Shown: piece by piece, positions 52,585 to 54,970 of the stretch
How positions within the stretch are numbered: position 1 is the first letter of the stretch
Layout: the number at the start of each line of letters is the position of its first letter
Assembly: GCF_003946395.1 (NCBI RefSeq)
Contig: NZ_RHNZ01000019.1
Coordinates: 1-55,500 of the forward strand
Direction of reading: 5' to 3'
Length of the DNA stretch: 55,500 nucleotides
Origin: Levilactobacillus fuyuanensis
Lineage (GTDB): Bacteria > Bacillota > Bacilli > Lactobacillales > Lactobacillaceae
Made by a program: the position numbers and the translations under genes
The notes under the pieces: generated by a model
Seen by the model: the letters and a program-made list of their open reading frames with translations, nothing else
Database searches by the model: none
Told to the model about the DNA's origin: nothing

Positions 52585-52625
52585 GATAACTACTCCCCTC
52601 ATTTGATAAACTTCAACGCACCCTA

Positions 52626-52667
52626 AGCATAACCGTTTAGCCAAGTTAAATCAAGAATGATTCTAAA
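52626..52667 (-). promoter_or_regulatory. ahpC promoter with PerR-like box
   Basis: On the minus strand -35 TTGATT, 17 bases, -10 TATGCT. TTAGAATCATTCTTG (52667-52653) fits the PerR/Fur-type 7-1-7 repeat and overlaps the -35. Peroxide derepression by PerR is inferred. Confidence 0.7.
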
Positions 52668-52750
52668 CTAGACTAATATATGAGTCCTTTTATAAATTTA
52701 TTAATAGTTTGTTATTATAATTATTATTCGATTTTTCTGAGGGTTTCTGA

Positions 52751-52779
52751 TTGCTTTTTCTTTCTGGATAGGATAGAAT
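52751..52779 (+). promoter_or_regulatory. Promoter of the M-box transcript
   Basis: -35 TTGCTT, 17 bases, -10 TAGAAT. Transcription would start near 52786, just before the aptamer. Confidence 0.75.
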
Positions 52780-52799
52780 GAACTATAGAATAAATTAGA

Positions 52800-52955
52800 A
52801 GCTGTTAGGTGAGGCTCCTATACGGAAAATGCTACTGCTCAGAAACGTCGAGAAACGCCAATGAGTCAGCTGTTCAGGTCAAATTAAGGCCTGTTCTAAT
52901 GTAGCTGTTAATGAAACAAGTAACTACGCCGTATAGTGCTAAAACTCAACGACTG
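52800..52955 (+). ncRNA. M-box (ykoK) magnesium riboswitch aptamer
   Basis: The conserved M-box blocks are in order: GTTAGGTGAGGCTCCTATA, ATGCTACTGC, CAGAAACGTCGAGAAACGCC, ATTAAGGCCTG, GTAGCTG and a final CTAAAACTCAACGAC. P1 is AGCTGTT (52800-52806) with AACGACT (52948-52954). M-boxes bind several Mg2+ and shut off Mg transporter genes when Mg is plentiful. Here no transporter follows. Confidence 0.9.
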
Positions 52956-53014
52956 GCCGTTCGTACACAAATGCTTTTTATTGTGCGCTTAGCTAGTCGT
53001 GGCTAAGCGCTTTT
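52950..53014 (+). terminator. Expression platform of the M-box: antiterminator and terminator
   Basis: Perfect terminator stem GCGCTTAGC / GCTAAGCGC (52985-53010) and T-run. CGACTGG (52950-52956), part of aptamer P1, can pair instead with CTAGTCG (52993-52999) in the terminator loop, a 7-pair antiterminator. Mg-bound aptamer should mean termination. Confidence 0.85.
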
Positions 53015-53040
53015 AATTTACTCACAGTCGTTACTGTCGG

Positions 53041-53497
53041 TTAGATTATAGGAGGTGATTGAACATGACAACACAACGCATAGATGATCCCGGAGCGTGT
53101 TATCACTCGCCGGTGGGAAAGTTGCAGTCAGTTCACACCTCTTGGTTGACGCTTTGAGGAAAACTGTTCTCTAGCTTTCCCTTTCCCGGACCCCGTAGCT
53201 TGATGCGGAGGTTCGACTGGTAGATTTTAGACTGAATCGATTGGCCACTTTAACTCAGCCGCTGTCGGCGTTGTAACCGACTGAACCACGGCTGACCTTC
53301 CCGAATTCGTTCGTGTGCCGGTTGGATTCAAACCACTTAATGGAAAACGCAAGCTAGAGTTACCCAGTTTTTCTCGGCCCTATGACAACCATAATGCATT
53401 GACGTGCTAGTTCACATAGCCGCTTCACCGTTGGGGGAACCCAGTGGGGAGGAAGACACTTGTAACTGACGCTGATTCAACTAGGCTGGTTTTTAAT
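53041..53497 (+). ncRNA. Candidate large structured RNA downstream of the M-box
   Basis: No protein frame fits, but helices are dense. A first 14-pair helix has GAGGTG-GAAC-TGAC (53052-53069) with GTCA-GTTC-CACCTC (53127-53141). GGACC/GGTTC plus CCGTA/TGCGG lie at 53188-53214. TCAGCCG/CGGCTGA encloses GTCGG/CCGAC (53255-53295). CTTCAC/GTGGGG around TGGG-GGAA-CCCA lies at 53423-53449. A T-run near 53492-53496 may end it. Family unknown; large ornate RNAs such as GOLLD or ROOL occur in lactobacilli and should be compared. Confidence 0.6.
53065..53157 (+). CDS. Possible 30-codon mini-ORF within the structured RNA
   Basis: ATG with GGAGGTG at a good distance opens a 30-residue frame (MTTQRIDDPGACYHSPVGK...). 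However, both the ribosome binding site and the ATG lie in one arm of the first helix of the RNA candidate. It could be a leader peptide of a vanished gene or chance. Confidence 0.3.
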   Translation: MTTQRIDDPGACYHSPVGKLQSVHTSWLTL

Positions 53498-53634
53498 CTC
53501 TAATAGTCGATACGAAATTAACACAAATCCTACAACTTAATCCTGATTATCGCGTGTCGCGCCAACACCCATGGGCTGATGGGAATCACCCCGCAAGGTT
53601 AGCAGCACACCGTTGATCTGGTTTCTGCAATTAT

Positions 53635-53674
53635 AAAAACGTCCTGTAATTCGCGAAGAATTACGGGACGTTTT
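53635..53674 (-). terminator. Terminator of the dicarboxylate symporter gene
   Basis: Stem AAAACGTCCTGTAATTC / GAATTACGGGACGTTTT, T-rich on both sides, so it may act in both directions. Confidence 0.9.
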
Positions 53675-53683
53675 GCATTATAT

Positions 53684-54970
53684 TTATTTGGTTTTAGCTG
53701 TACGAAGCTCCGCGAGATAATTCTGGCTCTTTTCCTCGCTAAACTCGTGCTCGGAACGACCAATGACCACCGTTGCAAGGGAGTTCCCCACAACGTTGAC
53801 CGCCGTCCGACCCATGTCGACTAAGCGATCGATCCCAGCGATAAACGTCAAGCCACTCATTGGTACCCCAATCGTGGAGACGGTTGCCAGCAGGACCACG
53901 AAGGACGCTCCAGGCACCCCGGCCATCCCTTTACTCGTGATCATCAGAACCACCAGCAAGGTGATCTGCTGCCCCAGGCTCAGGTTAATGTGGTAGGCCT
54001 GTGCCAGAAACAGTGCAGCCAGTGACTGGTAGATGGCAGAACCATCCAGGTTAAACGTGTAACCAGTTGGAATCACGAAGGAAACGATCCCCTGACTGAC
54101 CCCGAACTTATCCATCTTATCAATCAGACGTGGTAAGGTGGCTTCAGAACTGGCGGTTGAGAAGGCCAATACCGCTTCATCCTTAATAACGAAGAGGAGA
54201 TCCTTCAGTCGGAATTTAAACATCCGCGCAACGAGGCCCATGAAGACCACGATGAAGACGGCCATGGTCCCGTAAGCCAAGAGGATGAAATATCCCAATG
54301 GTGCTAGGGCTGAAATCCCCATTTGCGCAATGGTGACCCCAATCAAGGCACAGACCCCAATTGGTGCCGTATGCATAACCCAATTGGTGACCCGGAACAT
54401 GACCTGTGATACAGCATCTAAGAAGTCGATAATGATTTTCCCCTGCTTACCAATAGCAGCCGTTCCTAATCCGAAGAAGACGGAGAAGAAGATGACAGGC
54501 ATCATATCGCCCTCACCTAACGACTTGAAGAAGTTAGTGGGAATAATTCCCAGTAAGGTCGCCCAGATGCCGGAATCCTTGGCTGATTTGGCCGAGGAGA
54601 CGTATTGACTGATGTCTGAACTATGTAGTTGATGAATGTCGATAAAGCTCCCAGGATGGAAGATATTCCCCACCAGAAGCCCTAAGGCAATAGCGATGGT
54701 GGTCATGACTTCAAAGTAAATGATGGTCTTCCCACCGATACGGCCTAATTTCTTAATATCTCCCATGTTGGCAATCCCAACGGTCAAACAGGAGACAACA
54801 ATTGGCAGCACGATCATTTGAATCAGACTGATGAACATGTTCCCAATGTTCTGCATGGCCGTGATTGCCAACTTGTTTTGGTAAAAGACGACACCTAGAA
54901 TAATCCCCAAAACCAGACCAATTAAGATCTGCCACCCTAAACTCAGGCGATAACTACGGTATTTTTTCAT
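53684..54970 (-). CDS. DAACS-family dicarboxylate/amino acid:cation symporter
   Basis: A 428-residue membrane protein with the GltPh fold. LAFSTASSEATLPRLIDKMDKFGV is the serine-rich HP1 hairpin, VIPTGYTFNLDGSAIYQSLAALF helix 7 with the NMDGT-like motif, and TSKGMAGVPGASFVVLLATV the HP2 hairpin. SGLTFIAGIDRLVDMGRTAVNVVGN is helix 8 with the substrate-binding Asp and Asn. It takes up glutamate, aspartate or C4-dicarboxylates with Na+ or H+; which cannot be told. GTGGAAAG precedes the ATG. Upstream lies TTGTGG-N5-CCACAA at 55039. Confidence 0.94.
   Translation of the reverse strand: MKKYRSYRLSLGWQILIGLVLGIILGVVFYQNKLAITAMQNIGNMFISLIQMIVLPIVVSCLTVGIANMGDIKKLGRIGGKTIIYFEVMTTIAIALGLLVGNIFHPGSFIDIHQLHSSDISQYVSSAKSAKDSGIWATLLGIIPTNFFKSLGEGDMMPVIFFSVFFGLGTAAIGKQGKIIIDFLDAVSQVMFRVTNWVMHTAPIGVCALIGVTIAQMGISALAPLGYFILLAYGTMAVFIVVFMGLVARMFKFRLKDLLFVIKDEAVLAFSTASSEATLPRLIDKMDKFGVSQGIVSFVIPTGYTFNLDGSAIYQSLAALFLAQAYHINLSLGQQITLLVVLMITSKGMAGVPGASFVVLLATVSTIGVPMSGLTFIAGIDRLVDMGRTAVNVVGNSLATVVIGRSEHEFSEEKSQNYLAELRTAKTK

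Follow-up and report, generated by a model that had tools for sequence, protein, structure and literature searches.

The M-box riboswitch in the 55,500-nt stretch of Levilactobacillus fuyuanensis DNA analyzed here (the window) most probably serves, with a probability put at about 80%, as the Mg2+ gate of a structured RNA gene of about 600 nt, whose probably dual-function product would be made at low Mg2+. Evidence for this reading comes from the anatomy of the switch, the recurrence of one RNA in seven genera of the Lactobacillaceae, covariation in its predicted fold, and a short open reading frame (ORF) at its beginning.

The M-box switch and the region behind it

The switch comprises a promoter, an aptamer, and an expression platform:

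52752-52779, + strand: promoter read by eye, with a -35 box TTGCTT (52752-52757), a 16-nt spacer, and a -10 box TAGAAT (52774-52779)
52794-52964, + strand: M-box (ykoK leader) Mg2+ riboswitch aptamer, identified with the RF00380 covariance model
52949-53000, + strand: antiterminator, ACGACTGGC (52949-52957) with GCTAGTCGT (52992-53000) plus an extension, duplex -21.2 kcal/mol
52985-53014, + strand: intrinsic terminator from a terminator scan, an 11-pair stem (52985-53010) followed by TTTTA, -18.8 kcal/mol

An earlier sequence-only reading had named all four parts. Its M-box aptamer was borne out by the covariance search, where RF00380 scored 127.8 bits (gathering score, 44) and covered model positions 1-169 of 169; the same search of the whole assembly returned this single M-box. 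The proposed promoter is readable at the coordinates above, and TTGC of its -35 box is invariant in an alignment of 33 Levilactobacillus genomes; the automatic promoter scan did not have it among its output. The terminator was likewise recovered, and an antiterminator does exist, with a duplex longer than the seven pairs originally given. By duplex and hairpin energies, the antiterminator would compete with both aptamer P1 and the terminator. Across 70 M-box loci (33 from the genus, 23 from genus g31, and 14 from genus g37), no terminator hairpin is weaker than -11.1 kcal/mol and no antiterminator duplex weaker than -14.8 kcal/mol; these values, like the -21.2 kcal/mol duplex of the window, are energies with no null behind them. 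Judged from its sequence, the Mg2+ switch at 52794-53014 is real and intact-looking.

The usual, though not defining, feature of an M-box is a Mg2+ transporter gene downstream, and the window has none. As the earlier reading had stated, the next protein gene lies on the opposite strand, at 53684-54970 (minus), where it converges on the element; its nearest NCBIfam models are GltP/DctA, every score being below cut-off. The ORF list holds no ORF longer than 41 aa within 53059-53598. Profile searches that read through stops, with CorA (PF01544), MgtE (PF01769), and the MgtA family (TIGR01524), recognized no intact or degraded Mg2+ transporter in 53041-53640, and a degraded transporter behind the M-box is ruled out by these searches together with the conservation of the RNA across the genus and six further genera. 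The premise that Mg2+ transporter mRNAs are the sole targets of M-boxes was itself worded too strongly, as the M-boxes of mycobacteria include exceptions.

Distribution and fold of the RNA

DNA matching 53015-53640 is present in 33 of 35 Levilactobacillus genomes (the window's own included) at 68-100% identity, with the closest relative 97% identical, and had no match in 23 genomes sampled outside the genus. RF00380 matches the same 33 of 35 genomes, with the M-box directly upstream of the RNA on the same strand in 33/33. The suggestion that synteny might reveal a transporter missing only here was not upheld, since it is this RNA, not a transporter, that stands behind the M-box throughout those 33 genomes. 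Both M-box and RNA are absent from G005 (72% complete) and G029 (99% complete). In G029, the GltT-type gene of the window had no match in a DNA search run without a positive control; the locus may have been lost there, or the genome may be an outlier of the genus. A 20-base motif from the 3′ end of the RNA occurs in 31 stretches from named genomes, 27 of them Levilactobacillus, two 'Lactobacillus sp.', and two from unrelated organisms that are taken as chance matches.

The RNA body and its end have the following features, further to the short ORF and alternative helices described below:

53050-53622, + strand: conserved body of the structured RNA, with the ORF inside it; 33/35 genus genomes, covariation
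53115-53181, + strand: helix of GGGAAAG (in the ORF) with CTTTCCC (past the ORF), closing over the ORF end; cross-genus covariation
53234-53329, + strand: long helix, 53234-53248 with 53313-53329; 12/15 pairs changed on both sides
53255-53295, + strand: hairpin TCAGCCG/CGGCTGA with inner helix 53262-53268/53277-53283; 9/13 pairs changed on both sides
53368-53454, + strand: core junction of a closing helix, a TGAC-loop hairpin, and a GNRA-loop hairpin; the basis of covariance model R1 (79.6 bits, E 3.4e-17)
53569-53594, + strand: 3′ motif CCATGGGCTGATGGGAATCACCCCGC, a hairpin with a GGGA tetraloop; invariant in the genus
53636-53674, no single strand: 3′ terminator hairpin of 17 pairs from the terminator scan, common to the element and the convergent gene

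The conserved part extends to about 53622, so the end coordinate first given for the element did not hold. The folding energy of 53030-53500 corresponds to z = -2.39, with 2 of 100 shuffles equally low. A consensus fold of the 33 genus sequences contains 163 pairs, 51 of them changed on both sides compared with 27.6 in shuffled alignments (0/500 as high); 93.4% of cells are paired versus 89.2% (0/500 as high), and the 141 further pair types were reached in 3/500 shuffles. Kinship among the sequences inflates such shuffle tests, a fault from which slid controls are free: with slid partners, pairing falls to 34.9-43.9%, a control that favours the fold in its turn because the 163 pairs were derived from the same alignment. 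In the core shared by three genera, both-side changes affect 12 of 15 pairs (2/500 shuffles got as far), and covariation scores 0.534 versus 0.222 shuffled (0/500), with slid versions at or below 0.142. The GGGA/TCCC helix over the ORF end, found at 86/87 loci, shows 152 both-side changes across genera against 83 shuffled (0/500); within the genus, both-side changes are absent from all 11 of its pairs.

Every column of the 3′ motif is invariant in the 33 genus sequences, with an extra C in L021. It contains GGGAATCACCCC, which resembles the 3′ end of 16S rRNA (the anti-Shine-Dalgarno sequence) and could pair with the element's own Shine-Dalgarno (SD) sequence. The consensus fold prefers this motif as the SD partner; that helix is nearly invariant, making covariation uninformative.

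The RNA again lies behind an M-box in the genera g31 (23 loci) and g37 (14 loci). Model R1, with 102 positions, was built from 48 core-junction sequences of three genera, which remained after redundancy removal from the 62 of 70 loci that could be extracted; the window's sequence belongs to this training set, and its own R1 score is to be read accordingly. R1 matches 80 of 397 family genomes, one apiece: 24 in Levilactobacillus, 23 in g31, 13 in g37, 16 in g40, 1 in g43, 2 in g49, and 1 in g53. Among the M-box genomes of the three M-box genera in this family sample, 60/62 carry the RNA core at E <= 0.001. G076 (L165, g37) has the M-box and the ORF without an R1 match, and G112 (g37) has an M-box without one. 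The RF00380 search of the family sample found no M-box in g40, g43, g49, or g53, where a promoter-like sequence (by eye, unscored) lies close before the SD. Beyond the family, R1 matched 13 of 395 genomes of the order, all 13 inside the Lactobacillaceae, and 1 of 289 genomes of the class sample, namely the window's own; both searches used Infernal's stricter filters, with which weak relatives may be missed. The locus set used for comparison numbers 87, made up of all 33 genus matches, all 23 from g31, 14 of the 15 g37 M-box genomes, and 17 of the 20 R1 matches in genera lacking an M-box (L221, L222, and L225 of g40, and G112, were left out).

Neighboring genes recur on both sides of the locus, as counted by a loose motif search in flanks of limited length. 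A multicopper-oxidase gene lies upstream with the M-box in 13/23 loci of g31, and without it in 11/13 of g40, 2/2 of g49, and 1/1 of g53; a convergent gene of GltT/DctA type follows in 70/87 loci, and its place is taken by a same-strand gene in L149, L150, and L151. Since the RNA gene is found in seven genera and the M-box in three, Mg2+ control looks like an exchangeable module, added or lost in front of a largely syntenic RNA gene that would have a role of its own.

No Rfam 15 family accounts for the RNA. At E <= 10, the Rfam 15 search of 52600-53700 returned, besides the M-box, just three eukaryotic families (E 5.3-8.3, far below gathering), ruling out OLE, ROOL, GOLLD, raiA, or any other Rfam family for 53015-53640, and none reached gathering score in 15 loci of g40, g43, g49, and g53. 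Searches of the open-access literature (including PMC3766115 and PMC9495176) yielded nothing on the present element. The best reading of these comparisons is that the RNA behind the M-box represents a new structured RNA family, not in Rfam 15.

The short ORF and the competing helices

Four further features concern translation and alternative pairing:

53050-53059, + strand: strong Shine-Dalgarno sequence AGGAGGTGAT
53065-53157, + strand: conserved short ORF of 30 codons, MTTQRIDDPGACYHSPVGKLQSVHTSWLTL, with stop TGA
53155-53376, + strand: alternative helix 3:4, 53155-53166 with 53365-53376; covariation
53358-53467, + strand: alternative helix 4:5, 53358-53375 with 53449-53467, which excludes 3:4; covariation

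Within the SD, GGAGG is invariant in 33/33 genus sequences, g31 and g37 have GAGGTGA at every one of their 37 loci, and inspection by eye shows AGGAG or GAGGTG at the 17 loci of g40, g43, g49, and g53. At 87/87 loci in the seven genera there is an ORF of 26-33 codons that has [D/E]PG among its first 12 residues; the script that found it searched for this very motif and, at 70 of the 87 loci, looked just behind a GAGGTG-type SD. The peptide begins with M, usually T, and four or five further residues before [D/E]-P-G-[A/S], in which the first position is D in 86 loci and E in one, P is constant (87), and the last is A in 68 and S in 19. Codons for D and P change synonymously (P by CCT, CCC, and CCA), and G is always GGA. 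The distance from DPG to GGGA is 26, 29, 32, or 35 nt, equal modulo 3, in all 86 loci that have GGGA, and such in-frame-only changes in length would be expected of a translated frame. The ORF's latter half varies in both sequence and length, with 25 DNA versions in the genus giving 23 peptides, and looks unconstrained.

Because of this ORF pattern, the stretch that the earlier reading called structured and non-coding is structured, as covariation and folding energy agree, and is not purely non-coding. Its proposal that the M-box gates a non-coding RNA under low Mg2+ is likewise supported in part: a conserved structured RNA does lie behind the M-box in three genera, and it is not wholly non-coding.

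Segments in and behind the ORF have more than one possible partner, segment 4 (53358-53376) being open to pairing with segment 3, just past the ORF, or with segment 5. Helix 3:4 is 87.5% paired compared with 82.2% in shuffled alignments (0/500) and has a covariation score above all shuffles; its 4 both-side-changed pairs compare with 3.6 shuffled, a number reached by 338/500. For helix 4:5, pairing is 96.0% versus 90.1% (0/500), the covariation score again exceeds all shuffles, and 6 pairs changed on both sides (reached by 22/500). Duplex energies were scored at 61 of the 87 loci (21/33 in the genus, 23/23 in g31, 12/14 in g37, 2/13 in g40, 2/2 in g49, 1/1 in g53, and 0/1 in g43). The resulting z values are weak in the genus, with means of -0.87 for 3:4 and -1.12 for 4:5 over the 21/33 loci, and clearer for 3:4 elsewhere (-4.12 in g31, -3.97 for two loci of g40). 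Predicted duplexes between segment 1 (the SD and start) and segment 2 (ORF end) have mean energies of -13.9 to -21.8 kcal/mol and mean z of -2.4 to -3.9 in six genera. Within the genus, this SD:ORF-end helix shows no covariation (85.0% paired versus 85.7% shuffled), and it is the cross-genus duplex stability that argues for it. The two mutually exclusive helices behind the ORF suggest a switch.

Proposed mechanism, rival explanations, and known systems

M-boxes gate transcription according to Mg2+, and the anatomy of the window's switch fits that known behavior. With ample Mg2+, the aptamer would close P1, the terminator at 52985-53010 would form, and transcription would stop. With little Mg2+, the 3′ strand of P1 would pair with the terminator arm, and polymerase would run on to the terminator near 53674, giving a read-through transcript of about 890 nt from a probable start near 52786, of which the last 600 nt or so are the conserved fold. 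This RNA would open with the short ORF, which is conserved and presumably translated; the end of the ORF can pair with its ribosome-binding site. Ribosomes moving along the ORF would probably free segments of the RNA and decide between the 3:4 and 4:5 folds. The RNA, alone or as a ribonucleoprotein, would then be the trans-acting product of a low-Mg2+ response. A bolder version of this scheme is put forward tentatively, at well under even odds: the RNA of about 600 nt, confined to seven genera of one family, might be a new class of RNA machine in which ribosomes on the [D/E]PG peptide drive a relay of helices, and behind an M-box it might act as a two-step sensor of Mg2+ and ribosomes with the RNA itself as the output.

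The features of the ORF also invite an explanation in which the peptide is the product, a small protein of about 30 aa for Mg2+ stress, and the elaborate 3′ UTR just tunes translation or stability. The presence of [D/E]PG[A/S] near the start of the ORF in 87/87 loci, the synonymous changes at D and P, and the length changes that are in-frame only are all as this explanation would have them. It is nevertheless unlikely: neither the sequence of the peptide's second half nor its length is constant (26-33 aa in all), and most of the covarying structure lies in the roughly 450 nt that come after the ORF. In all 87 loci, moreover, GGA and GCG/TCG keep their third base, an indication of constraint at the level of RNA.

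The convergent gene raises a second possibility, whereby read-through of the shared terminator at 53636-53674 would produce antisense RNA to the GltT/DctA-type gene and low Mg2+ would lower uptake of glutamate or dicarboxylates. The recurrence of that gene in 70/87 loci by motif search agrees with such a role, but another gene comes next in L149, L150, and L151, and an antisense role needs no 600 nt of conserved fold, which together leave this quite improbable. Very little probability is given to the element being a leader or attenuator of a same-strand gene downstream: its leader-peptide-like ORF and alternative helices do resemble attenuators, and L149, L150, and L151 have a same-strand gene next, but the window has its next gene on the opposite strand and a terminator at the end of the element, and the neighbor is convergent in 70/87 loci. 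A switch left over from a recently lost transporter, as the sequence-only reading had allowed, can be dismissed; the assembly has no MgtE, nothing above the MgtA cut-off, and one CorA elsewhere by profile searches, but 53041-53640 holds no transporter trace and does hold covarying structure, and the same RNA is found in 33/35 genus genomes and six other genera.

The Mg2+-gated RNA gene favored here can be set beside several known systems. Like other M-box/ykoK leaders (RF00380), it has a full aptamer and a terminator/antiterminator platform; unlike them, it would govern an RNA gene containing a 30-codon ORF rather than the mRNA of a Mg2+ transporter. The usual arrangement is present in the genera g32 and g38 (one locus checked in each), where the M-box precedes an MgtA-type P-type ATPase above the TIGR01524 cut-off. 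The B12 riboswitch with Rli55 or EutX reportedly provides riboswitch-gated regulatory RNAs, in which, as would be the case here, a riboswitch and a terminator are said to decide on a product that is not an mRNA. A riboswitch, a terminator, and a conserved structured RNA are all present in the window; the ligand is Mg2+, and the product is large, outside Rfam, and itself carries a conserved short ORF.

OLE, ROOL, and GOLLD are likewise ornate RNAs of several hundred nucleotides in Bacillota, with OLE tied to stress adaptation, but their models gave no Rfam match at E <= 10 in 52600-53700. The MgtL and CorL leader peptides are said to share a short ORF, an N-terminal acidic residue beside a proline, and a Mg2+-controlled transcript; they differ in that no transporter lies behind the present ORF, which follows a Mg2+ riboswitch distinct from it and, in four genera, has none before it. 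An MgtL-type leader, with the ORF before a Mg2+ transporter gene, is rejected for the window, where no same-strand gene stands behind the element.

Other M-boxes were noted in the genomes searched. In L142 (725-1546, g29) and L145 (1154-2044, minus strand, g30), the M-box precedes proteins of 273-296 aa that match only part of the E1-E2 ATPase domain, at E 2.8e-5 (below cut-off) and 4.1e-8, with a next gene taken by eye as a pyruvate dehydrogenase subunit; this is possibly a truncated P-type ATPase kept under Mg2+ control. G015 has, within L175:290-2303, a second M-box upstream of a gene for an ABC permease (580 aa, two BPD_transp_1 stretches) and of an ATPase-like gene, a candidate Mg2+-controlled ABC transporter. 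A query of 52700-53700 also matches 10 plasmid records (H1-H10; Enterococcus and Alicyclobacillus) at the stretch of the M-box aptamer, and M-boxes may be carried on plasmids as well.

For the Lactobacillaceae, an Mg2+-gated RNA gene of this kind would extend the reach of M-boxes beyond the mRNAs of transporters to a gene for a structured RNA. It would also add a large RNA family that aligns well and whose inducing condition is clear. Comparing one locus between genera that have the M-box and genera that lack it would offer an example of a riboswitch acting as a control module that can be exchanged, and the embedded ORF with its competing helices provides a concrete switch model open to mutational testing in a food bacterium that is harmless.
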